Below are positions 16,902 through 56,455 of a stretch of DNA of 64,000 nucleotides, one piece after another. The notes beneath the pieces are model-generated. The model did not search any database. It was not told where the DNA came from and saw nothing but the letters and a program-made list of their open reading frames with translations. Where the stretch lies: the NCBI RefSeq assembly GCF_004328645.1, contig NZ_CP031395.1:3249501-3313500 (forward strand), written 5' to 3'. The position numbers were made by a program, and so were the translations under genes. Source of the stretch: Hylemonella gracilis (lineage in GTDB: Bacteria; Pseudomonadota; Gammaproteobacteria; Burkholderiales; Burkholderiaceae_C). Within the stretch, counting starts at the first letter, position 1, and every line of letters begins with the position of its first letter.

Positions 16902-19352
16902 TCACCGCGCCTGTGCATCGGCGGCGCTCTGCAACAACTCGGCGAACTTCGCCGCCGGCAGGGCCGGGTGGTAGAGCCAGCCTTGAACCTCGTGCACATT
17001 GAGACCGAGCAGGATGGTCCGCTGGATCTCGGTCTCCACGCCCTCGGCCGTGACCTCCAGCCCCAGCGTTGTCGCCATGACCGCGATGGTGCGCGTGATC
17101 GCCATGTCGTTCGGATCGGTGGCAAGGTCTCGGATGAAGCTGCGATCGATCTTGAGCCGCGTCAAGGGCAGGAACTTGAGCATGGACAGGGACGAGAAGC
17201 CCGTGCCGAAATCGTCCAGCGCCAGGTGCACACCCAGTGCGCGCAGTTTGTGCAGGGCACGCTGCACGGCCTCGCCATGCTGGAGCGAGGATTCCGTGAG
17301 CTCGACCTCCAGCATCGTGGGGGACAGGCCATGGCGCGCCAGCGCCTCGCCCACGCCTTCGGCATACCCGTCCTGCTGCAGCTGCAGGGCCGAAACATTG
17401 ATGGCCAGGCGCCCCGCTTCCAGGCCCAGCGCCTTCCATTCGGCGGCGTTGCGGCAGGCCTGCTCCAGCACCCAGTCCCCGATCGGCAGGATGAGGCCGG
17501 TTTCCTCGGCCAGCGGAATGAAACGCTCGGGGCTGATGCGGCCCGAGGCGCCATGGTTCCAGCGCAGCAAGGCCTCGGCACCGGTGATGCGCCCGTCGCG
17601 CATGTCGATCACGGGCTGCCACTGCAGTTCCAGCTCGCCACGGACGATGGCCTGGCGCAGGCCCTGCTCCAGTTGAAGGCGCTCCAGCGCGCGTCGGGCC
17701 AGGCTTTGCGAGAAAACCGCACTGCGGTTGCGACCCGCCGACTTGGCCTCGTACATGGCGGTGTCGGCGGCCTGGACGAGCTCGTCCGCGCTGTCCGCAT
17801 GCTCGGGGAACAGGGCGATGCCGATGCTGGCCGTCGCGCTGACGGTCTGGCCCACGCTGGTGCGTATCGGCTCGCTGATCAACGCCAGCAGCTTGCGACC
17901 GAGCGCCTTTGCGTCGTCGATGCTGCGCAGCTTGTCCAGCAGGATCAGGAACTCGTCCCCGCCCATGCGGATGGCCACGTCGTTCTGACGCAGGGTGGAG
18001 CGGAAGCGGCGGGCGATCTCCACCAGCATCTCGTCGCCGACCGCATGACCCAGTGAATCGTTGATGTTCTTGAACCCGTCGAGGTCGATGACGAGCAGGC
18101 CGAAACCGCCGTCCTCGGTCCGGGTGGCCGCGCGGGCGATGTTGTGGCGCAGGCAGATGTCGAGCTGATGGCGATTGCCCAGACCTGTCAAGGCATCGTG
18201 CAGGGCGATGTGCGTCAGGCGGCTCTCGACACTGCGCAGGGCAGAGATGTCGCAGAAGGTCAGCACGTAGTGCGTGAGCTTGCCCACGCGGTCGATCACG
18301 GGTGACAGCCCCTCCCAGGCGGGGAACAGGGAGTTGTCGCGCCGGCGGCAGGTGATCTCGACCTGGACGGAATCAGGGTCATCCGACCCCGCGATCCGGC
18401 GCCGGTCGCCGATGCGCGAAGCGTGCAGAAAGTCATCGGGCCGCTGACCCAGAACGTCCTGGACACGCCAGCCGGTGATGCGCTCAAAAGCCTTGTTGGC
18501 CATGCACACGCGCTGTTCACGGTCCAGGATCAGGATGCCGTCGCCCGTCGTCTCGAACACGACCGCGGCCTGGCGCAGATGCTCCTCGGCCTCGATGCGC
18601 TCGCTCACATCGCGCAAGATGCCGACCACGCGGTCTTCCTCGGTGAAGTAGCTGGCATGAATCTCAAGCCAGATGCGTTCACCACCGTTGCAGCGCCAGG
18701 CGACGCACACCTGAATCATCTTTCCGGACAGCAGCAGTTCCGTCGTTTTCTCGCGCACCTCCACGTCCTCAATGTGCCGCAAAAAACCGTCCCGACTGAC
18801 GGTGAAGCCCTGCGAAGGTAGTTCGAATATCGACTCCAGGTAACCGTCCACCTCGATCTGCTGGCGTCCGACATCGAATTCCATCACGCCGAAATGCGCG
18901 GCCTCCATGGCCAGCCGGAAACGACGCTCGGCGCGGCGGGTCTTTTTTTCCTCGTTCACCCGAGCCAGCGCCGCACGGATGGTGGCGTTCAGTTCGACGA
19001 TGTGCACAGGTTTGATCACGTAACCGTAGGGCGCCGCCTTGATCGCCTTCTCCAGAATGTCGTCACCGGCATTGGCAGTCAGATAGATGACGGGCAACTG
19101 CAGGTTTTTCGTCACTTCCTCGGCAGCGCGCGTGCCGTCCCCGCCCCGCCCGAGATTGATGTCCATGAGCACCAGATCAGGTCGTTCGCGCCGCGCCAGT
19201 TCGATGGCCTGCCGCTCGCTCGAAGCAATGCCGGTGACGCTGTACCCCAAGGACTCGAGGCTTTGCTGAAGGTCGTAGGCGAAGATCAGTTCGTCTTCGA
19301 CAATCTGCACTCGCACAGGTTGGGGCGATTCTGTATTCACTGCCGTTTCCAT
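16902..19352 (-). CDS. Response regulator with PAS, GGDEF and EAL domains (c-di-GMP)
   Basis: 816 residues. Order: REC (14-130, phospho-acceptor Asp64 in VLMDINLG, acidic pair E19-D20), two PAS domains (about 140-260 and 265-375), GGDEF (about 380-545, RMGGDEF intact) and EAL (about 560-805, GAEALLRW, DDFGTGFS, AEGVET). It could both make and degrade cyclic di-GMP. The histidine kinase gene lies 15 bases upstream on the same strand, so the pair is a likely two-component system. The REC domain has the LMDINLG-type sequence common to stand-alone receiver proteins partnered with HWE/HisKA_2 kinases. Confidence 0.92.
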   Translation of the reverse strand: METAVNTESPQPVRVQIVEDELIFAYDLQQSLESLGYSVTGIASSERQAIELARRERPDLVLMDINLGRGGDGTRAAEEVTKNLQLPVIYLTANAGDDILEKAIKAAPYGYVIKPVHIVELNATIRAALARVNEEKKTRRAERRFRLAMEAAHFGVMEFDVGRQQIEVDGYLESIFELPSQGFTVSRDGFLRHIEDVEVREKTTELLLSGKMIQVCVAWRCNGGERIWLEIHASYFTEEDRVVGILRDVSERIEAEEHLRQAAVVFETTGDGILILDREQRVCMANKAFERITGWRVQDVLGQRPDDFLHASRIGDRRRIAGSDDPDSVQVEITCRRRDNSLFPAWEGLSPVIDRVGKLTHYVLTFCDISALRSVESRLTHIALHDALTGLGNRHQLDICLRHNIARAATRTEDGGFGLLVIDLDGFKNINDSLGHAVGDEMLVEIARRFRSTLRQNDVAIRMGGDEFLILLDKLRSIDDAKALGRKLLALISEPIRTSVGQTVSATASIGIALFPEHADSADELVQAADTAMYEAKSAGRNRSAVFSQSLARRALERLQLEQGLRQAIVRGELELQWQPVIDMRDGRITGAEALLRWNHGASGRISPERFIPLAEETGLILPIGDWVLEQACRNAAEWKALGLEAGRLAINVSALQLQQDGYAEGVGEALARHGLSPTMLEVELTESSLQHGEAVQRALHKLRALGVHLALDDFGTGFSSLSMLKFLPLTRLKIDRSFIRDLATDPNDMAITRTIAVMATTLGLEVTAEGVETEIQRTILLGLNVHEVQGWLYHPALPAAKFAELLQSAADAQAR

Positions 19353-19367
19353 GCCTTGCTCCCTTTT

Positions 19368-20774
19368 CTATTCTTCGATCTGGAACGTGAAGCGCAGGCT
19401 GGCGCCCGGGCCTTGCAAAATCTCCAAGCGGGCGTCGATCTGCTGAGTCAGCATGTGGATCAGCTGGAACCCCATCGATCTCGACGCCGTTGGATCGAAG
19501 CCTGCAGGAAATCCGACCCCGTCGTCACTCACCTGCAACGTAGCCTGCGGACCGTTCTGAATGACCGCGACCTGAATCTGCCCCTGTTCGCGGGAAGGGA
19601 AGGCATGCTTGTAGGCGTTCACGATCAGTTCGTTGACGATGAGTCCGCACGGCACTGCCTTTTGCGTTTCAACCCGCATGCCGCTGGACGGGAAGTCCAG
19701 AACGATGTCCACCCGCGTCTTATCGCGTTGGTACGTCTGTTTCAGCAGCTGCACGAGCTTGTCCAGATAGGGACCGAATTCAAGGCCGGAAAAATTGTTG
19801 CCTTCGTAGAGCAGCTGATGCGTCATGGCGATCACGCCCACTCGGCTGCGACTTTCGCGCAGGGCGTCTCGCGCAACGCCCTCCACGCTGCGGGACTGAA
19901 TGTTGAGCAGGCTGGCCACGATCTGCAGATTATTCTTGACCCGATGGTGCACCTCGTTGAGCAAGAGCGTCTTTTCGCGCAGCGAGGCCTCCATCGCAGC
20001 CTGCGCCGCCAGACGGTCCGTGATGTCCACGACGGTCGCGAGTACCTCCGGCGGGTTGCGCCCTGGAATCGGATTGAGTGCCACCTCCACGGGAAACTCA
20101 CTACCGTCCAGTCGCACCGCCGTGAGCTTGCGGCGCTCGGCCATCACGCGCTGCGTCGGCGCCTGCAGATAGCGGCCCATCTCGACGCGATGGGTGTCAC
20201 GCCGTGTCTGCGGCAGCAGCATGTTCACGTGCTGCCCGATCAGCTGTTCCGGCTCGCAGGCGAACAGCCTGCACATATTCCGGTTGACCAGCAGCATCTG
20301 GCCCTGCGAATCAACAAGCGTCATGCCCTCCGGGGCTTGCTCGAAAAGACTGCGCAAGCGCGCTTCGCTCGCCGACAATGCTCTCTGGCTGGCTTGCTGC
20401 AGCGTCACGTTCACTGCTTTTACCAGGATACCCACAACAGCACCATCGCGCGTGCGGATGGGCAGGTAGCTGGCGCGCCACTCGGAGGGTTTACCCGGCA
20501 GGCTGGGCACCTCGGCCATCACACTGAAATCTTCCTGGGGCTCTCCGGCCAGAACCTTGGCCAGCATGGGTGAGATTTCAGGATAGGCCGAAGGCAGCAC
20601 CTCTGAAACCGTGCGCCCGATTGCCGCGCCCGCCTCCACGCCATTGAAAGCGGCCAGAACGCCGTTGATGCGCCGGTATCGCAGTTCGCGGTCGAGCACC
20701 GCCAGGCCCAGGCCCAGATCGCTGCTGAACAGCGCATCCAGGAAAGCATCGTCCTGTATGGCAAAAGAATCCAT
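19368..20774 (-). CDS. PAS-PAS sensor histidine kinase, HisKA_2 type
   Basis: 468 residues from ATG 20774, preceded by a GGGGGA ribosome site; the longer frame to 20918 adds unrelated residues. Two PAS domains (about 10-135 and 140-260) precede a HisKA_2 phosphoacceptor region (NEVHHRVKNNLQIVASLL) and an ATPase domain with an N-box (VNELIVNAYKHAF) and G-box (DDGVGFPAG). There is no membrane segment, so it senses a cytoplasmic signal. It is directly upstream of the REC-PAS-GGDEF-EAL gene and divergent from the nitrate regulator. Confidence 0.9.
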   Translation of the reverse strand: MDSFAIQDDAFLDALFSSDLGLGLAVLDRELRYRRINGVLAAFNGVEAGAAIGRTVSEVLPSAYPEISPMLAKVLAGEPQEDFSVMAEVPSLPGKPSEWRASYLPIRTRDGAVVGILVKAVNVTLQQASQRALSASEARLRSLFEQAPEGMTLVDSQGQMLLVNRNMCRLFACEPEQLIGQHVNMLLPQTRRDTHRVEMGRYLQAPTQRVMAERRKLTAVRLDGSEFPVEVALNPIPGRNPPEVLATVVDITDRLAAQAAMEASLREKTLLLNEVHHRVKNNLQIVASLLNIQSRSVEGVARDALRESRSRVGVIAMTHQLLYEGNNFSGLEFGPYLDKLVQLLKQTYQRDKTRVDIVLDFPSSGMRVETQKAVPCGLIVNELIVNAYKHAFPSREQGQIQVAVIQNGPQATLQVSDDGVGFPAGFDPTASRSMGFQLIHMLTQQIDARLEILQGPGASLRFTFQIEE

Positions 20775-21023
20775 GCGTCCCCCTGATAAAGCTCGCGAAG
20801 GTTTTCGCACCGCTTTTCTTATTGGTACCAAGTTAGCACATCTACCTCGCTCTTCCCAGCCCCTTCCGCCGTTCCAATGTGCTTCGGTGCTGACGCCTCG
20901 GAACGGGATCGCGGCCATTTCAGCAAGCGATGAAGATCAGCGCTGGCAATCACCAAGACGTGGGAAACGTGAAAAACGCACGCCCTATGATCTCCGTCCA
21001 ACCACCGCGTTTAGACGGAACGC

Positions 21024-22271
21024 ATGAAACACCGACTTCCAATGAACTCCGGCTTGAATTTCCTCGTTGCCGCCCGCCAGTGCGAAATCAGCGAACTGGA
21101 GCACCTGGCTCTCACCAGCGAACTGGTGGGGGTAATCGGGCGCCTGGTGCACGCACTGCAGAAGGAGCGCGGCATTTCCAATCTATTCCTGGCATCGCGC
21201 GGCGAACGCTTCGGCGCGCAGCGCGCCCCCCAGGTGGAAGAGTGCCAGCGCCTGCAGGCCGAAGTGATGGCGCGTTTCGACGCGCTCGACACCGACGCCA
21301 GCCGCGCGCGCAACGGCGCGCGCCTGTTCAACCGCATCGCCTACGTGCTGCAGGCGCTGGACGGCCTGCCCGCGCTGCGCGCGCGCGTCGCCGCCCTGGC
21401 GCTCACGGCCGAGGAAACCACGGCCGCCTTCGTGCGCCTGATCGCGGGCCTGCTGTGCGTGGTGCTCGAAGCCGCGGACAGCGCGACCGACCCCGAGATC
21501 TCGCGCGCGCTGGTCGCCCTGTTCCACTTCATGCAGGGCAAGGAGTACGCGGGCCAGGAGCGCGCGCTCGGTTCGGCGGCCTACGCCTCCGGCCGCATTG
21601 ACCCGGAACGCCAACAGCAATGGCGGCACCTGATCGAGGCACAGGACGCCTGCTTCCAGGTCTTCCAGGATTTTTCCGACGCCAACGCGCGCGCCACCTG
21701 GTTGGGCCAGCAAGATGCCGAAGCCCTGGCTGCTCAGGAAAAGCTGCGTCGCGTTGCCGTAGACGCACGGCTGAGCAGCGCGCTCGACCCCAACGCCAGC
21801 CTGCCCTGGTACGAGAACTGCACGCGGCGCATCGACGCCATGCGCCAGGTCGAGGACGCGCTGGCCATTCACCTGCGCAGCCTGTGTGAGCGCCGCATCG
21901 CCCAGGCGCGCGCGGAGCTGCGTGACCAGCAGGCCAGCCTGCAGGCCTTGCAGCGCCAGGCCGCGGCCTCGGACGCCGAACCAGCGACCTCGCTGCTGTC
22001 GCCGCCCCTGAGCCCGCACCTGGAACGTTCGGTGCTGGGCATGGTGCAGGAGCAGAACCGCCGCCTGCAAACCATGAGCGACGAACTGGCGACCACGCGC
22101 GCCGCGCTCAATGAACGCAAGGTGATCGAGCGCGCCAAGGGCCTGCTGATGGCCTCGCGCAAGCTGAGCGAGGACGAAGCGCACACCATGCTGCGCCAGA
22201 CGGCGATGAACCAGGGCAAGCGCCTGGTGGACGTGGCGCAGACCGTACTCAGCATGTCGGACTACCTCTGA
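21024..22271 (+). CDS. nasR: Nitrate/nitrite-responsive antiterminator, NIT-ANTAR (NasR-like)
   Basis: 415 residues. The N-terminal NIT domain (about 30-310) has the typical opening LVHALQKERGISNLFLAS and the WYENCTRRIDAMRQVEDAL segment. The C-terminal ANTAR domain (about 350-410, NERKVIERAKGLLMASRKLSEDEAHTMLRQTAMNQGKRLVDVA, quoted here only as a guide to key residues ERAKGLLM and EDEAHTMLRQTAM) binds RNA. Klebsiella NasR of this layout prevents attenuation in the nasF leader when nitrate binds. Exactly such a leader lies downstream, before nrtA. A second in-frame ATG at 21042 is an alternative start. Confidence 0.93.
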   Translation: MKHRLPMNSGLNFLVAARQCEISELEHLALTSELVGVIGRLVHALQKERGISNLFLASRGERFGAQRAPQVEECQRLQAEVMARFDALDTDASRARNGARLFNRIAYVLQALDGLPALRARVAALALTAEETTAAFVRLIAGLLCVVLEAADSATDPEISRALVALFHFMQGKEYAGQERALGSAAYASGRIDPERQQQWRHLIEAQDACFQVFQDFSDANARATWLGQQDAEALAAQEKLRRVAVDARLSSALDPNASLPWYENCTRRIDAMRQVEDALAIHLRSLCERRIAQARAELRDQQASLQALQRQAAASDAEPATSLLSPPLSPHLERSVLGMVQEQNRRLQTMSDELATTRAALNERKVIERAKGLLMASRKLSEDEAHTMLRQTAMNQGKRLVDVAQTVLSMSDYL

Positions 22272-22409
22272 GCCGCGGCTGCGCCGCTCCTCTCCCTGCC
22301 CGCTTTTCAAGCACATCGCCCCTCACGCACCCCGCACCGGTCGGGTCGGAACGCACCGGACCCAGGCTGGACCGCCCAGTAAAAGTGCGGCGCACGATGC
22401 CCGACAAAC

Positions 22410-22430
22410 GTCGTAGAACCGCACTACGAC
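22410..22430. promoter_or_regulatory. Perfect 7-7-7 inverted repeat upstream of the nas promoter
   Basis: GTCGTAG (22410-22416), spacer AACCGCA, CTACGAC (22424-22430). It lies 78 bases upstream of the sigma54-like promoter, in the place expected for an enhancer site, but it does not match the NtrC consensus. It has no T-tract and so is a poor terminator for nasR. Confidence 0.4.
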
Positions 22431-22434
22431 AAGG

Positions 22435-22447
22435 CAAGCCATTGATT
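22435..22447 (-). promoter_or_regulatory. Putative IHF site
   Basis: On the minus strand the bases read AATCAATGGCTTG, an exact match to the IHF consensus WATCAANNNNTTR. It sits 40 bases upstream of the sigma54-type promoter, the usual location for DNA bending between enhancer and promoter. A 13-base degenerate match can occur by chance. Confidence 0.5.
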
Positions 22448-22487
22448 CACATCGATTTTTTCAGGACTTCACGTCCACCATGAAGCC

Positions 22488-22502
22488 TGGCACGCATCAT
22501 GC
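22488..22502 (+). promoter_or_regulatory. Putative sigma54 (-24/-12) promoter of the nitrate assimilation operon
   Basis: The bases TGGCACG-CATC-ATGC match the consensus TGGCACG-N4-TTGC with one mismatch, and the GG and GC doublets are separated by exactly 10 bases. The predicted transcription start is near 22514, six bases before the first leader hairpin. NtrC/sigma54 control of nas operons is known in Klebsiella. Confidence 0.65.
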
Positions 22503-22519
22503 TTTGAATTGAACGCCCC

Positions 22520-22571
22520 GCGCCAACGACGGTGCAGGCAACGCCCACCCGGGCCTGGACAACGGCGTCCA
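22520..22571 (+). promoter_or_regulatory. ANTAR-target RNA: two hexaloop hairpins in the nas leader
   Basis: Hairpin P1 (22520-22535) has stem GCGCC/GGUGC (one G-U pair) and loop AACGAC. Hairpin P2 (22556-22571) has stem UGGAC/GUCCA and loop AACGGC. Both loops have A at position 1 and G at position 4, the known ANTAR recognition pattern. The P2 loop and 3' strand are also the start of the terminator's left arm, so binding of P2 by the NIT-ANTAR protein would block termination. The linker between the hairpins is 20 bases. Confidence 0.78.
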
Positions 22572-22620
22572 TTTCCCGCGAGCTCATGTTCGCGGCGGAA
22601 TGGACGCCGTTTTTGTTTTT
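22561..22620 (+). terminator. Intrinsic terminator (attenuator) in the nas leader
   Basis: A 13-bp perfect stem pairs AACGGCGTCCATT (22561-22573) with AATGGACGCCGTT (22599-22611). An inner CCGCGA/TCGCGG stem extends it, and a TTTTTGTTTTT tract follows. It sits between the sigma54-like promoter and nrtA, so it would stop transcription before the operon unless antiterminated. Confidence 0.88.
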
Positions 22621-22661
22621 GCGCTCTGTCTTGTCTACGTCTTGTCACCAGGAGTCATCCC

Positions 22662-23966
22662 ATGAAGAACCGCCCGCCCGCCTCTTCCACCCGCCGCGCC
22701 CTCCTGCGCCAGGCCGCCGCCGTGGGCGGCGCGGCCATGGCCGGCAGCCTGTGGTCCAGCCGCGTCGCGGCTTCCACCAAGCTGGAAACCACGGCCGCCA
22801 AGCTGGGCTTCATCGCGCTGACCGACGCCGCGCCGCTCTTCGTGGCCGATGAAAAGGGCTTCTTCAAGAAGCATGGCATGACCGAAGTGGAAGTGCTCAA
22901 GCAATCCTCCTGGGGCACGACACGCGACAACCTCGTGCTGGGCTCCAAGAACAACGGCATTGACGGCGCGCACATCCTCACGCCCATGACCTACCTGATG
23001 ACCACCGGGGCCATCACCGCGAACAATGTGCCCACGCCCATGACCATCGTGGCGCGGCTGAACGTCGGTGGCCAGGGCATTTCTGTGGGCAGTGAATACC
23101 AGGACCTCAAGGTCGGCCTTGACGCCAAAGCCTTCGGCAAGGCCATGCAAGCCAAGCGCGCCAAGACCGGCAAGCCGGTGAACGCGGCCGTCACCTTTCC
23201 GGGCGGCACGCACGATCTGTGGATGCGCTACTGGCTCGCCGCCAGCGGCATCGACCCCAACAAGGACATCAACACCATCGTGGTGCCGCCGCCGCAGATG
23301 GTGGCCAACATGAAGGTCGGCAGCATGGACACCTTCTGTGTCTGCGAACCCTGGAACCGTCAACTCATCAACCAGAAGATCGGCTACACGGCGCTGACCA
23401 CCAGCGAGCTCTGGATGGACCATCCCGAAAAGGCCCTGGGCCTGCGCAAGGATTACGTCGACGCCAACCCCAACGCCACCAAGGCCCTGATCAAGGCGGT
23501 CATGGAAGCCCAGATGTGGTGCGAGGACCCCGCCAACCGCGCCGAGGTGGCCGAGATCTGCGCACGCCGCCGCTGGATCAGCGCGCCGGTCGAGGATGTG
23601 ATCGACCGCGTCAAGGGCGACTTCGACTACGGCACCGGCCGCGTGGAGATGAACAGCAAGTTCCAGATGCACTTCTGGAAAGACCACGCCAGCTACCCCT
23701 TCCAGAGCCACGACCTGTGGTTCCTGACCGAAGACATCCGCTGGGGCTACCTGCCGGCCAACCTGGACACCAAGGCCCTGATCGCCAGGGTCAACCGCGA
23801 AGATCTGTGGCGTGAAGCCGCCAAGGAACTGGGCCTGGCGGCCAAGGACATCCCCACGTCCACCTCGCGTGGCGTGGAGAAGTTCTTCGACGGCAAGGTC
23901 TTCGACCCGGCCAACCCCAAGAAGTACCTGGACAGCCTGTCCATCAAGTACCTCAAGAGCGCCTGA
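22662..23966 (+). CDS. nrtA: Nitrate ABC transporter substrate-binding protein
   Basis: 434 residues from ATG 22662, with AGGAG 7 bases upstream. The N-terminus STRRALLRQAAAVGG followed by a hydrophobic stretch looks like a twin-arginine export signal. The mature part is NrtA/NasF-like: GFIALTDAAPLFVADEKGFF, TFPGGTHDLWMRYWL, PPPQMVANMKVGSMDTFCVCEPWN. It binds nitrate in the periplasm and passes it to NrtB. First gene of the operon, 42 bases downstream of the attenuator T-tract. Confidence 0.93.
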   Translation: MKNRPPASSTRRALLRQAAAVGGAAMAGSLWSSRVAASTKLETTAAKLGFIALTDAAPLFVADEKGFFKKHGMTEVEVLKQSSWGTTRDNLVLGSKNNGIDGAHILTPMTYLMTTGAITANNVPTPMTIVARLNVGGQGISVGSEYQDLKVGLDAKAFGKAMQAKRAKTGKPVNAAVTFPGGTHDLWMRYWLAASGIDPNKDINTIVVPPPQMVANMKVGSMDTFCVCEPWNRQLINQKIGYTALTTSELWMDHPEKALGLRKDYVDANPNATKALIKAVMEAQMWCEDPANRAEVAEICARRRWISAPVEDVIDRVKGDFDYGTGRVEMNSKFQMHFWKDHASYPFQSHDLWFLTEDIRWGYLPANLDTKALIARVNREDLWREAAKELGLAAKDIPTSTSRGVEKFFDGKVFDPANPKKYLDSLSIKYLKSA

Positions 23967-23997
23967 GTCCGTCCCGCCGCCCGCAGAAGGAATTCCC

Positions 23998-24861
23998 ATG
24001 AGCACCCCCGATACCCTGGAGCCCCTCCGGCTCGCGACAGCGACACCCGCGTCGCGGGCTGGCGCCTGGCTGATCGCCAAGACGCGCGCGCTGGCCGTCC
24101 ACGTGCTGCCGCCCTTGATCCTCATCGGCCTGCTGGTGCTGATCTGGGAACTGCTGTGCGCGCGGCCCGGCGCCACGCTGCCACCGCCGAGTCGGGTGGT
24201 GCAGGACACCTGGGAGCTGATCGTCAGCCCCTTCTACGACAACGGCGGCAACGACGTGGGCCTGGCCTGGCAGCTGCTGGCCAGCTTGAAGCGTGTGGCT
24301 TACGGTTATGCGCTGGCGGTGGTGGCTGGCGTGGGTCTGGGCGTGCTGGTGGGCCAGTCCAGCTGGGCGCTGCGCGGCCTGGACCCCTTGTTCCAGGTGC
24401 TGCGCACGGTGCCGCCACTGGCCTGGCTGCCGATCTCGCTGGCGGGCTTTCGCGACGGCCACCCCTCGGCCATCTTCGTGATCTTCATCACCGCCATCTG
24501 GCCCATCATCATCAACACCTCCATCGGCATCCGCAACATCCCCGAGGACTACCGCAACGTCGCGCGCGTGATCCGGCTCAATGGGTTCGAGTACTTCGGC
24601 AAGATCATGTTGCCCGCCGCCGCACCCTTCATCTTCTCGGGGCTGCGCATCGGCGTGGGCCTGTCCTGGCTGGCCATCGTGGCGGCCGAAATGCTGATCG
24701 GCGGTGTGGGCATCGGCTTCTTCATATGGGATGCCTGGAACTCCTCGCGCATCAGCGACATCATCCTCGCCCTCGTCTACGTCGGTCTGATCGGCTTCCT
24801 GCTCGACCGACTCGTCGCCTGGATCGGCCACATCGTGACGCGCGGCACCTCCGCCAGCTGA
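23998..24861 (+). CDS. nrtB: Nitrate ABC transporter permease
   Basis: 287 residues from ATG 23998, with AGAAGGAA upstream. About six membrane helices, an SsuC/NrtB-type permease with the EAA-loop region NIPEDYRNVARVIRLNGFEYFGKIMLPAAAPFIFSGLRIG (key residues A-x-R-L-N-G). It forms the membrane channel for the NrtA-delivered nitrate. It lies between the binding-protein and ATPase genes, with short gaps of about 31 bases. Confidence 0.93.
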   Translation: MSTPDTLEPLRLATATPASRAGAWLIAKTRALAVHVLPPLILIGLLVLIWELLCARPGATLPPPSRVVQDTWELIVSPFYDNGGNDVGLAWQLLASLKRVAYGYALAVVAGVGLGVLVGQSSWALRGLDPLFQVLRTVPPLAWLPISLAGFRDGHPSAIFVIFITAIWPIIINTSIGIRNIPEDYRNVARVIRLNGFEYFGKIMLPAAAPFIFSGLRIGVGLSWLAIVAAEMLIGGVGIGFFIWDAWNSSRISDIILALVYVGLIGFLLDRLVAWIGHIVTRGTSAS

Positions 24862-24893
24862 ACCCGACCCGACCACCCACGGAGAACGACGCC

Positions 24894-25736
24894 ATGAACA
24901 ACGCTTACCTCAGCCTGTCCCAGGTGGACATGACCTTTCAAAGCCGCGGCGGCGCCAGCAACCCGGTGCTGCGCAACATCAACCTCGACGTGCGCCGGGG
25001 CGAGTTCATCTCGCTGATCGGCCATTCGGGCTGCGGCAAGTCGACCGTGCTCAACATCGTCGCCGGCCTGCTGCGGGCAACGCAAGGCGGCGTGATCGTC
25101 GATGGCCGCGAAGTCAACGCGCCCGGGCCGGACCGGGCGGTGGTCTTCCAGAACCACTCGCTGCTGCCCTGGCTCACCGTGCACCAGAACGTGGCGCTGG
25201 CGGTCGAGAAGATCTTCCGCGACAGCAAAACGGCGGCCGAGCGCAAGGCCTGGGTGCTGCACAACCTGGAGATGGTGAACATGACGCATGCGCTGCACCG
25301 CCTGCCTTCCGAGATTTCGGGCGGCATGAAACAGCGGGTTGGCATCGCGCGGGCGCTGGCCATGGAGCCCAAGGTGCTGCTGCTCGACGAACCCTTTGGA
25401 GCGCTGGACGCCCTGACCCGTGCCCACCTGCAGGACGAAGTCATACGCATCCAGGGTGAACTGGGCAACACCGTGCTGATGATCACCCACGACGTGGACG
25501 AGGCCGTGCTGCTGTCCGACCGCGTGGTGATGATGACCAACGGCCCGGCCGCCACCATCGGCCAGATCCTCGACGTGCCCCTGCCACGTCCGCGCAATCG
25601 CATCGCGCTGGCCAGCGACAGCGCCTACAACCACTGCCGGCAGGAAATCCTGAGCTTCCTGCACGAAAAGCAGCGCAAGGTGGAACCCATCACCACGCCC
25701 CGTTCGGACACGGCGACCGCCGCCCTGCGCGCCTGA
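24894..25736 (+). CDS. nrtD: Nitrate ABC transporter ATP-binding protein
   Basis: 280 residues from ATG 24894. ABC ATPase motifs: Walker A GHSGCGKST, Q-loop FQNHSLLPW, signature SGGMKQR, Walker B KVLLLDEPFGALD, H-loop MITHDVDEAVL. It lacks the NrtA-like extension that cyanobacterial NrtC has, so it is the NrtD/NasD-like form, probably acting as a homodimer. nirB begins 33 bases later. Confidence 0.92.
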   Translation: MNNAYLSLSQVDMTFQSRGGASNPVLRNINLDVRRGEFISLIGHSGCGKSTVLNIVAGLLRATQGGVIVDGREVNAPGPDRAVVFQNHSLLPWLTVHQNVALAVEKIFRDSKTAAERKAWVLHNLEMVNMTHALHRLPSEISGGMKQRVGIARALAMEPKVLLLDEPFGALDALTRAHLQDEVIRIQGELGNTVLMITHDVDEAVLLSDRVVMMTNGPAATIGQILDVPLPRPRNRIALASDSAYNHCRQEILSFLHEKQRKVEPITTPRSDTATAALRA

Positions 25737-25769
25737 GCCGCTGCAAGCACCCCACCCCAGGAGACTCCC

Positions 25770-28265
25770 ATGGACATGCGCGCCCGCAAACAGAAGCTCG
25801 TGATGATTGGCAATGGCATGGCCGGCGTGCGCAGCCTCGAAGAGCTGCTCAAGCTCGCGCCGGAAATGTATGAGATCACCGTCTTCGGCACCGAGCCCCA
25901 TCCCAACTACAACCGCATCCTGCTCTCGCCTGTGCTCGCGGGCGAACAGCAGCTCGAGGACATCGTGCTCAACGACTGGGCCTGGTACGAGACGAACGGC
26001 ATCACCCTGCACGCGGGCTGGACGGTGACGGAAATCGATCGCCGCCAGCGCCTCGTGCACGCCCGCAATGCCCAAGGCGAAACACGCAGCGCGCCCTACG
26101 ACCGGCTGATCCTCGCCACCGGCTCCAACCCCTTCATCCTGCCCGTGCCCGGCAAGGATCTGCAAGGCGTTCTGGCCTACCGCGACATCGCCGACACCGA
26201 GGCCATGATCGCCGCCGCCGCGCAATACAGGCACGCCGTCGTGATCGGCGGCGGCCTGCTGGGTCTGGAAGCCGCGAACGGGCTGATGAAGCGCGGCATG
26301 GACGTCACCGTGGTGCACGTCGCACCCTGGCTGATGGAGCGCCAGCTGGACGAGGTGGCAGGCCGCATGCTTCAGAAGTCACTGGAAGACCGAGGCATGA
26401 AGTTCCGCATCGGCGCACAGACCGGGGAGCTGCTGGGCGACGCCACGGGTCGGGTCGCCCGCGTGCGCTTCCAGGATGGCGATGAACTGCCCGCCGAACT
26501 CGTGGTAATGGCCGTGGGCATCCGCCCCAACACCGCGCTGGCCGAGCAGACCGGATTGCACGTGAACCGCGGCATCGTGGTCAACGACACGCTGCAGACC
26601 ACCACCGACCCGCGCATCTACGCCGTGGGCGAATGCGCGGCGCACCGGGGCATCGCCTACGGCCTGGTGGCGCCGCTGTTCGAACAAGGCAAGGTGCTGG
26701 CCAACCACTTGGCGCAGTTCGGCATCGGCCGTTACACGGGTTCGCTCACCTCGACCAAGCTCAAGGTCACCGGCATCGACCTGTTCTCCGCCGGGGACTT
26801 CCTCGGCGGACCGGGTACCGAGGAAATCGTGCTCAGCGATCCGCATGCCGAAGGCGGCGGCGTCTACAAGAAACTGGTGCTCAAGGACGACAAGCTGGTC
26901 GGTGCTTGCCTCTATGGCGACACGGTGGACGGCAGCTGGTACTTCAAGCTGCTGCGCAATGGGCGCAACGTGACCGACCTGCGCGACAAGCTGATGTTCG
27001 GCGAATCGAACATCGGCGACGCGGGCCACCAGGGCCAGTCGCGCGCCATGGCCATGGCCGATGGTGACGAAGTCTGCGGCTGCAACGGCGTCAGCAAGGG
27101 CGCGATCTGCAAGGCCATCAAGGAAAAAGGCTTGTTCACCCTGGACGAGGTGCGCAAGCACACCAAGGCCAGCGCAAGTTGCGGCTCCTGCACCGGCCTG
27201 GTGGAGCAAATCCTGATGTTCACGGCTGGTGGCGACTACAGCGCCACGCCCAAGACCAAGGCCCTGTGCGCCTGCACCGAGCATGGGCACCAGGCCGTGC
27301 GCGACGCCATCCGCACGCCCTTGCCCGACGGGCGCAAGCTGCTGACCATCCCGGAGGTCTACCGGCATCTGAATTGGAAAACACCCAACGGCTGCGCCAC
27401 CTGCCGCCCCGCGGTCAACTACTACCTGCTCAGTACCTGGCCCAAGGAGGCCGTGGACGACCCACAAAGCCGCTACATCAACGAGCGCAGCCACGCCAAC
27501 ATCCAGAAGGACGGCACCTACAGCGTGGTGCCGCGCATGTGGGGCGGCGAGACCACGGCCGACGAATTGCGCCGCATCGCCGACGCGGTGGACAAGTACA
27601 AGATTCCCACCGTCAAGGTCACGGGCGGGCAGCGCATCGACCTGCTGGGCGTGAAGAAGGAAGACCTGCAGAACGTCTGGCGCGACATCGGCATGCCCAG
27701 CGGTCACGCCTACGCCAAGGCGCTGCGCACGGTCAAAACCTGCGTGGGCAGCGAATGGTGCCGCATGGGCACGCAGGACAGCACGCAGATGGGCAAGGAC
27801 CTGGAGCGCGCGCTCTGGCGCATGCAGGCGCCGCACAAGGTCAAGCTCGCGGTCAGTGGCTGCCCGCGCAACTGCGCCGAGTCTGGCATCAAGGACGTGG
27901 GCGTGATCGGCGTGGACAGCGGCTGGGAGCTCTACGTCGCGGGCAATGGCGGCATCAAGACCGAGGTAGGTCAGTTCTTCTGCAAGGTCAAGACCGCCGC
28001 CGAAGTGCTGGAGTACAGCGGCGCCTTCCTGCAGCTCTACCGCGAAGAAGGCTGGTACCTGGAACGCACCGTGCACTACGTGGGCCGCGTGGGACTGGAC
28101 TACGTCAAGAAAAAGATCCTCGACGACCACGAAGGGCGCAAAGCCTTGTGGGAGCGCCTGCAGTTCGCGCTGGACGGTGAACCCGACCCCTGGTTCGAGG
28201 CTGACAAGGCCCGCGTGGACCAGCGCCAGTTCATCCCCATCCAGGTCGAAAAAACCACGGCCTGA
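25770..28265 (+). CDS. nirB: Assimilatory nitrite reductase [NAD(P)H], large subunit
   Basis: 831 residues, normal for NirB. N-terminal FAD/NAD(P)H domain (about 8-330: GNGMAGVRSLEELL, VIGGGLLGLEAANGL), then two BFD-type [2Fe-2S] motifs (CGCNGVSKGAIC with CGSCTG; CAC with CATC), then sulfite/nitrite reductase ferredoxin-like domains. The siroheme/[4Fe-4S] cysteines are intact in TCVGSEWC and GCPRNC. It reduces nitrite to ammonium in the cytoplasm with NirD. Siroheme would be supplied by the methyltransferase encoded further down the same strand. Confidence 0.96.
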   Translation: MDMRARKQKLVMIGNGMAGVRSLEELLKLAPEMYEITVFGTEPHPNYNRILLSPVLAGEQQLEDIVLNDWAWYETNGITLHAGWTVTEIDRRQRLVHARNAQGETRSAPYDRLILATGSNPFILPVPGKDLQGVLAYRDIADTEAMIAAAAQYRHAVVIGGGLLGLEAANGLMKRGMDVTVVHVAPWLMERQLDEVAGRMLQKSLEDRGMKFRIGAQTGELLGDATGRVARVRFQDGDELPAELVVMAVGIRPNTALAEQTGLHVNRGIVVNDTLQTTTDPRIYAVGECAAHRGIAYGLVAPLFEQGKVLANHLAQFGIGRYTGSLTSTKLKVTGIDLFSAGDFLGGPGTEEIVLSDPHAEGGGVYKKLVLKDDKLVGACLYGDTVDGSWYFKLLRNGRNVTDLRDKLMFGESNIGDAGHQGQSRAMAMADGDEVCGCNGVSKGAICKAIKEKGLFTLDEVRKHTKASASCGSCTGLVEQILMFTAGGDYSATPKTKALCACTEHGHQAVRDAIRTPLPDGRKLLTIPEVYRHLNWKTPNGCATCRPAVNYYLLSTWPKEAVDDPQSRYINERSHANIQKDGTYSVVPRMWGGETTADELRRIADAVDKYKIPTVKVTGGQRIDLLGVKKEDLQNVWRDIGMPSGHAYAKALRTVKTCVGSEWCRMGTQDSTQMGKDLERALWRMQAPHKVKLAVSGCPRNCAESGIKDVGVIGVDSGWELYVAGNGGIKTEVGQFFCKVKTAAEVLEYSGAFLQLYREEGWYLERTVHYVGRVGLDYVKKKILDDHEGRKALWERLQFALDGEPDPWFEADKARVDQRQFIPIQVEKTTA

Positions 28266-28301
28266 CGGACTCCCACCCGCCAAGCAAGCCCCCCATCCGC
28301 C

Positions 28302-28694
28302 ATGAACATGAACCAATGGACCCCCATCTGCCAGGTCGAGGACATTCCCCGACTGGGCGCGCGCCGCGTCGAACGCCCCCAGGGCATGGCCGTGGCGCTG
28401 TTCCGCACGGCGCAGGATGACATCCACGCCTTGCTCGACCGCTGTCCGCACAAGGGTGGCCCGCTGTCGCAAGGCATCGTCTTCGGCGCCAGCGTGGCCT
28501 GCCCGCTGCACAACTGGACCATCGAATTCGCCAGTGGCTGCGCCCGCGCGCCCGACGAAGGCAGCACGCCACGCTTTGCCGTCATGGTGGACCAGGGCGT
28601 GGTCCACCTCGATGCAACTGAACTTGCCACGCTGGCGCTGGACGTCGCACCGCCCGTGGCCGGCCCCTGCCTGCGCAAGGTGGCCTGCGCCTGA
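28302..28694 (+). CDS. nirD: Nitrite reductase small subunit, Rieske-type
   Basis: 130 residues. The Rieske-like fold carries CPH (in RCPHKGGPLSQG) and CPLH (in ACPLHNW), so all four [2Fe-2S] ligands appear present, unlike some enterobacterial NirD proteins that lack them. It partners NirB. The gene begins 36 bases after nirB; two ATGs (28302 and 28308) are possible starts. Confidence 0.92.
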   Translation: MNMNQWTPICQVEDIPRLGARRVERPQGMAVALFRTAQDDIHALLDRCPHKGGPLSQGIVFGASVACPLHNWTIEFASGCARAPDEGSTPRFAVMVDQGVVHLDATELATLALDVAPPVAGPCLRKVACA

Positions 28695-28711
28695 GGGTGA
28701 CCCCGGAACTT

Positions 28712-28753
28712 GGCATGCCTAAGGAAACTCGCTCCACCTGTCCCTACTGCGGT
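28712..28753 (+). repeat. 42-bp direct repeat, copy 1 (upstream of nasA)
   Basis: Identical to 28812-28853, exactly 100 bases apart. It contains a ribosome-site-free ATG followed by the first 13 codons of nasA, ending at CPYCG. The 58 bases between the copies form two adjacent short-loop hairpins: CGCCGC-TGC-GCGGCG (28756-28770) and CGCCC-GCT-GGGCG (28771-28783). Confidence 0.95.
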
Positions 28754-28822
28754 CTCGCCGCTGCGCGGCGCGCCCGCTGGGCGTGTACAGGCAACACCTC
28801 CGTAGGGACTCGGCATGCCTAA
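28715..28822 (+). other. 35-codon remnant ORF: duplicated nasA N-terminus
   Basis: Translation from ATG 28715 gives the first 13 residues of NasA (to CPYCG) and then 22 unrelated Arg/Ala-rich residues; the TAA stop (28820-28822) lies just inside the real nasA start. It is either a by-product of a small tandem duplication or a leader peptide that couples translation into nasA. There is no evidence that it is functional. Confidence 0.5.
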
Positions 28823-28853
28823 GGAAACTCGCTCCACCTGTCCCTACTGCGGT
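28812..28853 (+). repeat. 42-bp direct repeat, copy 2 (real start of nasA)
   Basis: Second copy of the 42-bp repeat, covering the start codon (28815) and first 13 codons of nasA. In this copy the reading continues as CPYCGVGCGV, the [4Fe-4S] binding motif, so this is the functional copy. Confidence 0.95.
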
Positions 28854-31694
28854 GTGGGCTGCGGTGTGATCATCGAAAGCGAGGGTGACCAGATCACCGG
28901 CGTGCGCGGTGACCCGGAGCATCCGGCCAATTTCGGCCGGCTCTGCTCCAAGGGTTCCACCCTGCATCTGACGGCCGCGCCCGAGATCACGCGCCAGCAC
29001 CGGCTGCTGCAGCCCTTGCGGCGCGCGCAACGCGGCGACGCGCCCGTGGCGATCGGCTGGGATGAGGCGCTGGACGACGCCGCCACGCGTTTCGCCCAAA
29101 TCGTCCAGGCGCATGGACCGGACGCGGTGGGCTTCTACATCAGCGGCCAATTGCTCACCGAGGACTATTACGTCTTCAACAAACTGGCCAAGGGCCTGAT
29201 TGGCAGCAACAACATCGACACCAACTCGCGCCTGTGCATGAGCAGCGCCGTGTCGGGCTACAAGCTCACGCTGGGCGCGGACGCGCCACCGACCTGTTAC
29301 GAAGACATCGACCACGCCGGCTGCCTTTTCATCGCGGGCAGCAACACCGCCTGGGCGCACCCCGTGCTCTTTCGTCGGATCGAGGATGCCAAGCGGCGCC
29401 GACCGGACCTGAAGATCGTCGTGGTCGACCCACGGCGCACCGACACTGCGAGCGGCGCCGACCTGTTCCTGCAGATCCAGCCCGGCACCGACGTGGCGCT
29501 GTTCCACGGCATGCTGCACCTCATGCTGTGGGAAGGCTGGACGGACAGCGCCTACATCGCCGCGCACACCCAGGGCTTCGACGAACTCAAGAGCCGCGTC
29601 CGTGACTGGACACCGGACCGGACGGCGCAGGTCTGCGGCATCCCGAAGGAAGCATTGGCCGAGGCGGCGCGCCTGTTCGCCACCGGTGGGGGAGATCCGC
29701 AACACCGCCGCCCCACCCTCAGTCTCTACTGCCAAGGCCTGAACCAGAGCAGCAGCGGCACGGCCAAGAACGCGGCCCTGATCAACCTGCACCTGGCCAC
29801 GGGCCAGATCGGCCAAGCCGGCGCTGGCCCCTTCTCGCTCACGGGCCAGCCCAACGCCATGGGCGGGCGCGAGGTCGGCGGCATGGCCAACCTGCTGTCC
29901 GCCCACCGCGACCTGGCCAACCCCGCGCACCGTGCCGAAGTGGCCGCGCTCTGGGGCCTGCCCTCCGTGCCCGAACAGCCCGGCAAGACGGCGGTAGAGA
30001 TGTTCCAGGCCGCCGCCGATGGCGAGATCAAGGCGCTCTGGATCGCTTGCACCAACCCCGCGCAGAGCATGCCCGATCAGGCCACGGTGCGACGCGCGCT
30101 GCAACGCGCCGAGTTCGTGGTCGTGCAGGAAGCTTTTACCACCACGGCCAGCTGCGACTTTGCCGATCTGCTGCTGCCCGCCACCACCTGGGGCGAAAAA
30201 GAGGGTACGGTCACCAACAGCGAACGCCGCATCAGCCGTGTGCGCGCGGCGGTGCGACCGCCTGGCCAGACCCGGCACGACTGGAAAATCGTGGTGGACT
30301 TCGCGCGCCGTCTGCAAGCACGGGGTATCGGCTCGCGGCACGCGCTGTTTCCCTACGATGGCCCTGAAGCCATCTGGAACGAACACCGCGCCAGCACGCG
30401 CGGACGTGATCTCGACATCACGGGTCTGAGCTATGAACAGCTGGAAGCGGCACCTCGGCAATGGCCCTGCCCCGCCGACACGACCCGGCATGACCCGGGC
30501 CAGACCCCAACCCTCATGCCGCAGCACCCCGGGGTCTCGCTCGGCAAAGCCCGTCTGTACGAGGACGGTCGCTTCCCCACCCCCGATGGGCGCGCACGTT
30601 TCGCTTCGGTGGACTACCAGCCGGTGGCCGAACCCCGCAGCGCGCGCTTTCCCTTCGCCCTGACCACGGGCCGTCTGCGCGACCAATGGCATGGCATGAG
30701 CCGCACCGGCACCCTGGGTCGTCTCTTCGGTCATGCGCCTGAGGCCCTGGTGCAGATCAACGCCAGCGACATGGCGCGGCGCGGCCTGAAGGAAGGAGAG
30801 CTTGTGCACCTCACCAGCCAACGCGGCTCCATCGTCCTGCCCCTGCAGGCCAGCGAGGACGTGGCCAGTGGCCAGGCCTTCATGGCCATGCACTGGGGTT
30901 CGGAGTTCCTCGGTGGACACAGCAGCACGGGCCAGCCCCTGGCCGGTGTGAACGCGCTCACGACTGCGGCCTTCGACCCGCTTTCCAAACAACCCGAGCT
31001 CAAGCACACCGCGGTCAAGATCCTCAAGGCCGAACTGCCCTGGACCTTGCTCGGCCTCGCCTGGTTGCCGCCCGAACGCGTGGGAGAAACGCGCGCAGCC
31101 TTGCGTCACCTGATGACGCGCTTTCCCTACACGAGCTGCGTGCCCTTCGGGCACGACAAGACCGGCCTGCTGCTGCGCGCGGCGGCCGACGCGGCCCCAC
31201 CCGAGGAACTGCTGAACCAGATCGAAGCCCTGCTGGGCCTGGACGTCACGGGCGTGCTGCGTTACGTCGACCGCAAGCGCGGCCAACGCCGTGCCTTGCT
31301 GCTGCGACGGGACGCGGCCGCCCCGGCCGGACCGGCCACGCTGCAGGCCGTGCTGCTGGGCGGCGACACCCGTGCTGAAAGCTGGCTGCGCAACCTGCTG
31401 CAGGACGAACTGCCCGCGCAGGCCTACGGCCGCCTCTTGCTCATGCCGGGCGCCCAGGCACCGGCCGCCCCGGACGCCGCGCGTCCACGCGCACGCCAGG
31501 TCTGCACCTGCTTCAACGTGGACGAAGACACCATCACCCAGACGCTGACGCAATGTGGTGGTGACGATCGCGAACGCTTGGTCGCCTTGCAGGACACGCT
31601 GAAGTGCGGCAGCAATTGCGGGTCCTGCGTGCCCGAGCTGCAACGCTTGGTGCGCCGCACGCAGGCGGCCCTGGCGCCTGCGCAACCAATTTGA
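28815..31694 (+). CDS. nasA: Assimilatory nitrate reductase, catalytic molybdenum subunit
   Basis: 959 residues. N-terminal [4Fe-4S] motif C9-x2-C12-x3-C16 with a fourth Cys in RLCSKG; Mo-bisMGD domain with SRLCMSSAVSGY (Mo-ligand Cys region), GSNTAWAHPVLFRRIE and ATTWGEKEGTVTNSERRISRV; molybdopterin dinucleotide-binding domain; C-terminal BFD-type [2Fe-2S] domain (VCTCFNVDEDTI and CGSNCGSC). Reduces nitrate to nitrite in the cytoplasm. The start is fixed to 28815 because the upstream duplicate copy runs into a stop. Needs molybdate; modABC is 27 kb away. Confidence 0.95.
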   Translation: MPKETRSTCPYCGVGCGVIIESEGDQITGVRGDPEHPANFGRLCSKGSTLHLTAAPEITRQHRLLQPLRRAQRGDAPVAIGWDEALDDAATRFAQIVQAHGPDAVGFYISGQLLTEDYYVFNKLAKGLIGSNNIDTNSRLCMSSAVSGYKLTLGADAPPTCYEDIDHAGCLFIAGSNTAWAHPVLFRRIEDAKRRRPDLKIVVVDPRRTDTASGADLFLQIQPGTDVALFHGMLHLMLWEGWTDSAYIAAHTQGFDELKSRVRDWTPDRTAQVCGIPKEALAEAARLFATGGGDPQHRRPTLSLYCQGLNQSSSGTAKNAALINLHLATGQIGQAGAGPFSLTGQPNAMGGREVGGMANLLSAHRDLANPAHRAEVAALWGLPSVPEQPGKTAVEMFQAAADGEIKALWIACTNPAQSMPDQATVRRALQRAEFVVVQEAFTTTASCDFADLLLPATTWGEKEGTVTNSERRISRVRAAVRPPGQTRHDWKIVVDFARRLQARGIGSRHALFPYDGPEAIWNEHRASTRGRDLDITGLSYEQLEAAPRQWPCPADTTRHDPGQTPTLMPQHPGVSLGKARLYEDGRFPTPDGRARFASVDYQPVAEPRSARFPFALTTGRLRDQWHGMSRTGTLGRLFGHAPEALVQINASDMARRGLKEGELVHLTSQRGSIVLPLQASEDVASGQAFMAMHWGSEFLGGHSSTGQPLAGVNALTTAAFDPLSKQPELKHTAVKILKAELPWTLLGLAWLPPERVGETRAALRHLMTRFPYTSCVPFGHDKTGLLLRAAADAAPPEELLNQIEALLGLDVTGVLRYVDRKRGQRRALLLRRDAAAPAGPATLQAVLLGGDTRAESWLRNLLQDELPAQAYGRLLLMPGAQAPAAPDAARPRARQVCTCFNVDEDTITQTLTQCGGDDRERLVALQDTLKCGSNCGSCVPELQRLVRRTQAALAPAQPI

Positions 31695-31743
31695 GAACAT
31701 CCGCTGAGCCGCGAAACCCTCTCCCGCAGCCGGCCCCGTCCCC

Positions 31744-32487
31744 ATGTCCATTCCGCGCTTTTCCGCCCCCACCGCCGCCCGGCCCGCGACGCCCTTGTTG
31801 ATGCCCGACACACAGATCCGCGACGCGGCGCCCGCGACCCCGCCGCACCCGCAGGGCATCTCCATCGTGAACCTCGCCGCGCGCCAGCGCATGCTGTCGC
31901 AACGCTTGATCCTGCAGATCCTGCTGGCCGCGCGCGGCGACACGGCCAAGCTGGACGAGGCGCGCCGCACCTTGCAGCTCTTCGGCGAGAGCCACCAGCG
32001 TTTGACGGGCGCTGCCACGGCCACAGGACTGGGCGACGCCGAAGCCCGCCGCATCCACGACACCTACCGCGGCCCGGCAGGCGTGGGACCAGTCATCGAT
32101 GCGTTCATGCGGCTGGTGCGCGAGGCCATCGACCGCATCGTGGCGCGGGACACGACCACCCCTGAAACCATCTCCCAGTTGGTCGACCAGACCGACCGCA
32201 TCCTGTCGGCGCTGGACACCGCGACCACGGCTTTCGATGACATCACCCGCAGCCGCTCTGGCGCCATGCTCAAGGAACTGGTCAGCATCGTGGGCGACAT
32301 CCAGGGCGTGGCCAAGGAGGCCAAGATCGTGAGCTTCAACGCCCAGGTGATGGCCGCCCGCGCGGGCCAGCACGGACGCGAGTTCGCCGTCGTCGCCAAC
32401 GTGCTGTCCAACATCACCGATGTGATCGACGGCCTCACGCGCAAGGCCGCGGTGCTGGCCGAACAACGCCACACGCTCGCGGCCTGA
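31744..32487 (+). CDS. Soluble PilJ-type nitrate-sensor-like / chemoreceptor-like protein
   Basis: 247 residues with no membrane helix. After a Pro/Ala-rich start, residues 40-65 (NLAARQRMLSQRLILQILLAA) match the PilJ/NarX-type N-terminal domain, where NarX has the nitrate-binding P-box. The last 80 residues resemble a short methyl-accepting signalling helix (EAKIVSFNAQVMAARAGQHGREFAVV), the protein-interaction tip of chemoreceptors. It lies 49 bases after nasA in the nitrate operon, so a cytoplasmic nitrate-sensing or chemotaxis-linked role is plausible. Function not established. Confidence 0.7.
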   Translation: MSIPRFSAPTAARPATPLLMPDTQIRDAAPATPPHPQGISIVNLAARQRMLSQRLILQILLAARGDTAKLDEARRTLQLFGESHQRLTGAATATGLGDAEARRIHDTYRGPAGVGPVIDAFMRLVREAIDRIVARDTTTPETISQLVDQTDRILSALDTATTAFDDITRSRSGAMLKELVSIVGDIQGVAKEAKIVSFNAQVMAARAGQHGREFAVVANVLSNITDVIDGLTRKAAVLAEQRHTLAA

Positions 32488-32520
32488 GCACGGGCCCGGC
32501 CCGGGCTAAACTTCCCGTCA

Positions 32521-34539: not shown

Positions 34540-34618
34540 GCTGTTCCGGTCCGTCGAATTCCAAACCGGTGCCTGCTCGCTGTGGCACCATCACGGACCC
34601 GAAACTCCCCACACCCTC

Positions 34619-56241: not shown

Positions 56242-56275
56242 GAGAAATGTCCAAGGCCGGTGTACAGAGACGATT

Positions 56276-56420: not shown

Positions 56421-56455
56421 CGTATTCTAACAAAGGGAATCACCGGGCCCAGGGC

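Follow-up and report, generated by a model that had tools for sequence, protein, structure and literature searches.

The stretch at 22487-22661 in Hylemonella gracilis, flanked by a NIT-ANTAR gene on its 5' side and by the ATG of nrtA (22662) on its 3' side, is very probably a nitrate-responsive ANTAR antitermination leader of the NasR/nasF type. Switches of this kind have been described in Klebsiella, so the leader adds a member to the kind and does not found a new one. Coordinates refer to the 64,000-nucleotide stretch of DNA that was analyzed, hereafter the window, in which the regulator, leader, and operon have the following features:

21024..22271, + strand: NIT-ANTAR (NasR-type) regulator gene, 415 aa from the ATG at 21024 (Pfam, NasR match)
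22374..22388, no strand assigned: imperfect NtrC-like palindrome GCCC-AGTAAAA-GTGC, matching GCAC-N7-GTGC at 7 of 8 positions (palindrome match, position)
22487..22503, + strand: sigma54-type core promoter CTGGCACGCATCATGCT, with a ten-base spacing of GG and GC (sequence)
22520-22535, + strand: P1 hairpin GCGCC-AACGAC-GGUGC, hexaloop AACGAC at 22525-22530, -6.7 kcal/mol (sequence and folding)
22543-22554, + strand: small linker hairpin GCCC-ACCC-GGGC in the interval between P1 and P2 (minimum free energy fold of the nascent RNA)
22556-22571, + strand: P2 hairpin (antiterminator) UGGAC-AACGGC-GUCCA, hexaloop AACGGC at 22561-22566, -5.6 kcal/mol (sequence and folding)
22561-22611, + strand: intrinsic terminator stem-loop, 23 pairs and one bulge, fold of -41.9 kcal/mol
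22610-22620, + strand: T-tract TTTTTGTTTTT, predicted 3' end of the attenuated RNA (sequence)
22650-22654, + strand: AGGAG upstream of the nrtA ATG (sequence)
22662..23966, + strand: nrtA, nitrate-binding protein of an ABC transporter and first gene of the operon (Pfam NMT1_2, 2e-105; named by family and context)
24001..24861, + strand: nrtB, permease (TIGR01183, 317.9 bits)
24879..25736, + strand: nrtD, ATPase (TIGR01184, 349.3 bits)
25770..28265, + strand: nirB, nitrite reductase large subunit (TIGR02374, 931.5 bits)
28302..28694, + strand: nirD, small subunit (TIGR02378, 77.2 bits; cut-off 74.65)
28815..31694, + strand: nasA-type molybdopterin assimilatory nitrate reductase (Pfam Molybdopterin, 6.2e-73; BFD-like C-terminus)

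The predicted structures of the leader are those of an attenuator. An earlier note, made from the sequence alone, had described a P1 loop AACGAC and a P2 loop AACGGC, each with A1 and G4, and both are found in the sequence and by folding. Both loops are closed by a C-G pair, as they are in 41 of 41 aligned leaders. Bases 22561-22571, which form the loop and 3' arm of P2, also belong to the terminator, making the two structures mutually exclusive. The overlap and the T-tract thus agree with the earlier description, but the terminator has 23 pairs and one bulge rather than the 13 bp given there. Folding with and without P2, which the note had proposed as a check, gave the expected pair of states. 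The nascent RNA 22514-22572 folds unaided as P1, the hairpin at 22543-22554, and P2 (-26.0 kcal/mol), and in the full 22514-22620 the terminator fold is favored (-63.0 vs. -43.7 kcal/mol with P1 and P2 enforced). The folding z-score of 22500-22670 is -3.34, a value that none of 200 shuffles reached.

The protein encoded just upstream is, as had been claimed, a NIT-ANTAR protein. Pfam domains NIT (2.7e-54, residues 41-283) and ANTAR (2.2e-20, residues 357-409) are present, and among proteins of solved structure the closest is NasR (4AKK, 5.4e-49). Judged from relatives, translation may start at Met7 (21042), which is invariant in the regulator alignment (A1). NasR numbering was transferred through the 4AKK alignment and the residue names given in PMC7496416. 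The counterparts of NasR R340 and K347 (R365 and K372 in the window) are invariant in 80 of 80 relatives, and the K341 position is K in 77 and R in three. At the K345 position all 80 have R, a swap reported to behave like wild type in NasR (K345R; PMC7496416). The W362 position is His387 in the window and either His (57 of 80) or Tyr (23 of 80) in relatives; the same source describes this position as aromatic and reports loss of RNA binding in W362A. At the position of the autoinhibitory partner E191, the window protein has Glu, as do just eight of the 80 relatives. Divergent from the regulator, at 16902-20918 on the minus strand, are a response regulator-PAS-GGDEF-EAL gene and a PAS/HisKA_2 histidine kinase gene.

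Conservation of P1 and P2 in related genomes, on which the earlier note had staked its reading, is extensive. We compared 80 loci from one scan of genome contigs, chosen for presence of a NIT-ANTAR gene; these are mostly Comamonadaceae, with some Azoarcus/Thauera and Oxalobacteraceae and one Pseudomonas. A P2 sequence preceded by a sigma54-type element occurs in 78 of the 80. P1 and P2 occur together in 76 by a looser P1 pattern and in 74 by a strict rule that found nothing in controls (no reverse-strand match in the 80 loci, none in 68 upstream kilobases, and a mean of 0 over 20 rounds of shuffling). Among the exceptions, L088 and L112 are without a canonical P1 and L094 is without a P2 within 1 kb, though a genome contig equal to it in length (994978) has an R1 match ~2.7 kb farther along, ahead of nrtA (R1 is the covariance model described below); the sequence of L059 stops 240 nt past the end of the gene. 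The first recognized gene past the regulator is nrtA in 77 of 78 loci that have a match.

The leaders fall into two main spacing types. In the long type, to which the window belongs, the P1 loop is 36-45 nt from the P2 loop (40 loci). In the short type, the distance is 27-31 nt (26 loci, mainly Variovorax), the P2 loop is AAAGGC in 24 of 26, and a different hairpin precedes P1. Another ten loci have other spacings and were dropped from the alignment. The 40 long-linker leaders and the window make up alignment A2 (41 leaders); the 26 short-linker leaders were kept apart, and alignment A3 contains 24 of these. Covariance model R1, trained on 35 of the sequences in A2, scores the window, itself one of the 35, at 84.5 bits.

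Covariation across the 41 leaders supports P1 and the inner pairs of the terminator. The outer five pairs of P1 have 50 double-change cells, compared to 16.1 when shuffled and at most 28 when slid, although the number of P1 pairs with any double change (five) is not above the shuffled value of 4.7. In the terminator, 97.1% of cells pair and 24 are double changes, which none of 500 shuffles reach. In P2, GGACAACGGCGTC is invariant, and its pairing therefore gets no covariation support. Such near-invariance is expected of bases that protein and terminator both depend on.

The linker between P1 and P2 has a structure of its own in the long type. In the window it measures 22 nt between 4-bp stems and 20 nt between 5-bp stems. 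The latter value is inside the 2-25 nt reported in an actinobacterial survey (PMC8164766) and longer than the 5-12 nt reported for eut leaders, in which a linker of 14 nt impaired induction (PMC3369931) and an additional 20 nt abolished antitermination (PMC8934654). We tested linkers in 98 distinct leaders including the window; for the hairpin count, 10 of 66 long and 12 of 32 short linkers were dropped as being at least 75% alike. Of the 56 long linkers that were kept, 39 have a stem of at least 4 bp (shuffles 26.4, SD 3.2; none of 500 shuffles reach the observed count), and a 4-bp stem is present in 1 of 20 short linkers (shuffles 1.1). Folding z-scores of single linkers are weak, with a mean of -0.58. 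Since EutV is reported to tolerate only short linkers, we tested whether pairing in the hairpin limits the length of unpaired linker. In long linkers, the unpaired remainder is 7.7 nt, equal to that of shuffled linkers (7.7 nt; Wilcoxon p 0.54), and a linker-shortening role of the hairpin is not supported.

The leader starts at what appears to be a nitrogen-controlled promoter. The sigma54-type site at 22487-22503 places the predicted start at ~22514, the first coordinate of the leader in the earlier note, and predicts an attenuated RNA of ~107 nt. Farther upstream, GCAC-N7-GTGC is an NtrC-like palindrome. An exact copy is present between gene and sigma54-type site in 63 of 79 upstream regions (78 loci and the window; shuffles 0.28), and palindromes with other spacers, from 5 to 13, occur in at most eight of the 79 each. 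The window palindrome is at -114 from the T of the -24 element, and two other strains of H. gracilis have 8 of 8 matches at -114 (L034) and -113 (L035). Matches of at least 7 of 8 arise in 129 of 1,000 shuffles of the window, so position is the better argument for an NtrC-like site here. The genome encodes one NtrC over the cut-off and one RpoN, and a simple scan of 21900-34600 found no sigma70-like promoter. With a sigma54-type promoter at the start of the leader, two inputs are probable rather than nitrate alone: transcription would be initiated under nitrogen shortage and allowed to proceed by nitrate. A 2017 paper describes Klebsiella nas genes as activated by the Ntr system and nitrate-induced through NasR (PMC5424462), and by that statement the two-input design is already known.

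The leader is positioned to serve all six genes of the operon, given that nrtD and nirB are just 33 bases apart. On the plus strand from leader to nasA, a simple scan found, besides the attenuator, one weak terminator-like stem, inside nrtB. The name nasA is given by context because the protein matches no NCBIfam cut-off among the 25 models listed. Directly past nasA (31744-32487, + strand) is a gene, perhaps of the same operon, whose product has an N-terminal domain of PilJ type and matches MCP signaling weakly and in part. The same leader stands before two kinds of nrtA: the window protein is 97% identical to that of L034 and 38% identical to that of L035, and the regulators of these strains are 92% and 89% identical to that of the window, respectively. 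The change in nrtA type seems to be located just past the terminator in these three sequences. Elsewhere in the window, 56256-56422 on the minus strand is a manganese riboswitch (yybP-ykoY, RF00080, 99.6 bits).

The elements, their predicted structures and mutual exclusion, covariation, position beside the regulator, and genes for NIT-ANTAR, sigma54, and NtrC are direct observations; from Klebsiella NasR and Enterococcus EutV, we infer RNA binding, nitrate response, and read-through. Under nitrogen limitation, phosphorylated NtrC and sigma54 RNA polymerase would start transcription at ~22514. By default, the RNA would adopt P1 and the terminator and stop at ~22620. Binding of nitrate or nitrite by the NIT domain of the upstream-encoded protein would free the ANTAR domains, which would contact the P1 and then the P2 hexaloop while the RNA emerges. 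With P2 held as a hairpin, its loop and 3' arm would be unavailable to the terminator, and polymerase would read through into nrtABD-nirBD-nasA.

The leader resembles known ANTAR systems. As reported for the nasF leader and NasR of Klebsiella oxytoca (PMC7496416, PMC3369931, PMC5424462), there is a NIT-ANTAR protein, two hexaloop hairpins with A1 and G4, overlap of P2 and terminator, probable Ntr control, and a nitrate-assimilation operon. Unlike K. oxytoca nasF, the operon here is nrtABD-nirBD-nasA in a Comamonadaceae-type genome. The regulator also differs from Klebsiella NasR in having His at the W362 position, and the linker hairpin may be a further difference from the Klebsiella leader. 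The nas leaders of Pseudomonas, Azotobacter, and Paracoccus are likewise reported to mediate ANTAR antitermination of nitrate-assimilation operons (PMC5424462), but in NasS/NasT the sensor and RNA binder are two proteins and the regulator in the window is one fused protein. Some R1 matches also lie 3' of ANTAR genes that lack a NIT domain, genes we read as NasT-like. The eut leaders and EutV of Enterococcus faecalis follow the same dual-hexaloop antiterminator principle, but have a two-component input and reported linkers of 5-12 nt.

Within the genome, the leader stands alone. R1 has one good sense match and all others, except its own antisense image, have E of 0.059 or higher; a wider regulon in this genome is rejected. 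Across the family, R1 is present in 95 of 200 genomes. A strong NIT match (121.9 bits or more; the next scores 75.0) is present in 55 of 200; in at least 51 of these an ANTAR domain is listed within 1 kb 3' of NIT, and 51 have an R1 match and four do not. With antisense images of R1 matches excluded, at least 90 of 115 sense matches have a listed ANTAR domain on their own strand 55-1277 nt to the 5' side (limit of 1.5 kb). Among the matches listed, at least 43 of these leaders follow a NIT-ANTAR and 47 follow an ANTAR without a NIT match nearby.

Twenty-five sense leaders are without a listed ANTAR nearby, and 23 were fetched and read for the downstream gene, named by similarity to window proteins, by Pfam (four genes), or otherwise by reading of start sequences. 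These leaders are before nirB-type (10), nrtA-type (5), and formate/nitrite-transporter genes (2, one by Pfam). Four further targets occur once each: an MFS transporter gene, a nirD-like gene followed by nasA, a nasA-type gene, and flhD. The remaining two were unplaced: L178 has neither a sigma54-type site nor P2, and L179 is at a contig end. The leader before flhD, in genome G044 (L167:2838-3441, - strand; R1 46.1 bits), has a sigma54-type site, a P1 with AACGGC, a P2 of GGAC-AAAGGC-GUCC, and a terminator that starts from the P2 loop. It is upstream of flhD (Pfam FlhD, 3.5e-38) followed by an flhC-like ORF, named by reading; the other copy of the leader in G044 is 3' of an ANTAR gene of NasT size. 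Nitrate-gated motility is possible in this one genome. The ~130 bases from T-tract to the flhD ATG leave room for another promoter.

Initiation by NtrC and sigma54 could instead provide most of the control, with attenuation as a minor fine adjustment. This is unlikely, but it fits conservation of the sigma54-type site (78 of 80 loci) and exact palindrome (63 of 79 regions), and N2-fixing conditions are reported to raise expression of all listed nitrate-assimilation genes of Azoarcus olearius but narK more than 50-fold (PMC8467165). It leaves unexplained why P2 and terminator are conserved and mutually exclusive, and in vitro read-through of the Klebsiella homologue is reported as 52% with nitrate vs. 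5% without (PMC7496416). We consider it very improbable that the leader is a true ANTAR target with an AmiR-like ANTAR protein as main reader and the neighboring NIT-ANTAR protein as a secondary one. The genome does have two ANTAR genes in total, the second at C1:368833 (locus L002) and AmiR-like. In addition, 47 of 115 sense leaders in relatives follow an ANTAR gene without a NIT match nearby, so leaders of this type could work with several kinds of sensor. But the AmiR-like gene is flanked, by ORF reading, with genes for an AmiC-like binding protein and an ABC-transporter permease rather than nitrate genes, and the NIT-ANTAR gene is directly upstream in the window as well as in the 80 loci, which were chosen for that gene.

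A strong terminator 290 nt past a stop codon would be ordinary, and the stem-loop might merely end the regulator transcript, with the likeness to P1 and P2 incidental and the operon driven from elsewhere. We consider this extremely unlikely. P1 covaries, P2 hardly varies in either loop or stem, a sigma54-type site lies between gene and hairpins, the scan for sigma70-like promoters found none, and similar leaders in relatives stand before nirB, away from the regulator. The NasR/nasF-type leader is the reading that we retain. Points that weigh against it are the His at the W362 position, the rarity of Glu at the E191 position among relatives, a linker longer than in the eut leaders, the imperfect NtrC-like site, and the four genomes in which a strong NIT match comes without an R1 match.

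Two Rfam families bear on this reading. The window scores 29.5 bits against narK (RF03032; gathering score 43.2) and 29.4 bits against P11 (RF00625; gathering score 70) and is rejected as a member of either; nor did 16 of the loci have a narK or P11 match at gathering score. At E of 0.001, narK is found in 22 of 200 family genomes, with none over gathering score. By hand comparison, 16 of these 22 matches overlap R1, five more follow an ANTAR gene, and the remaining one is in G144. In the class, narK is found in 15 of 369 genomes (two over gathering score), and eight of 16 loci fetched from these matches have a sigma54-type site and P2 pattern. P11 is found in 13 of 369 including the genome analyzed here (one over gathering score).

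The consensus of narK has a sigma54-like element, a P1 of its own (CC-AACGGC-GG), and a P2-like GAC-AAAGAC-GUC, although its structure line marks P1 only. P11 has a sigma54-like element, a P1 with an A1/G4 loop, GGAC-AAAGGC-GUCC, and a terminator. Both exceed their scores in one genome (L221:3749-3815, narK, 55.1 bits, and 7441-7580, P11, 126.2 bits; + strand). The order there is NasS-like, NasT-like, narK RNA, transporter, unrelated ORF, P11, nirB, and nasA, with genes named by reading of start sequences, and each RNA has two A1/G4 hexaloops and a terminator starting at the P2 loop. The nirB leader of P. aeruginosa is reported to be controlled by NasT. From these motifs, narK and P11 look like the same element: ANTAR leaders with the sigma54 promoter inside the model. 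Among the papers listed by our literature searches, we saw none that links narK RNA to ANTAR.

Taken jointly, these patterns could be read as one conserved, portable module, in a view that might equally prove right or wrong. The unit would join a dual-hexaloop ANTAR attenuator to a core promoter of sigma54 type, with P1, or an extra hairpin in the short-linker form, near the first transcript bases. In beta- and gammaproteobacteria it would serve fused NIT-ANTAR and split NasS-NasT nitrate sensors alike, and would have been copied before nrtA, nirB, nasA, transporter genes, and, in one relative, flhDC. The narK and P11 families would describe it partly, their models including promoter DNA and not marking P2. 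The third hairpin of the long-linker form, as in the window, may help to place the loops for the ANTAR dimer; the compaction test did not support this last part.

These findings record the NasR mechanism as widespread in a betaproteobacterial family, 55 of whose 200 sampled genomes have a strong NIT match, although nasR was called a mainly gammaproteobacterial gene in the 2017 paper (PMC5424462). They also suggest a function for Rfam narK. The natural variants of P1, P2, linker, and terminator, of which there are dozens, provide material for testing the use of two loops by an ANTAR dimer, a problem posed by the structure of EutV (PMC8934654). If the module reading is true, nitrate would gate motility in the relative with the leader before flhDC.
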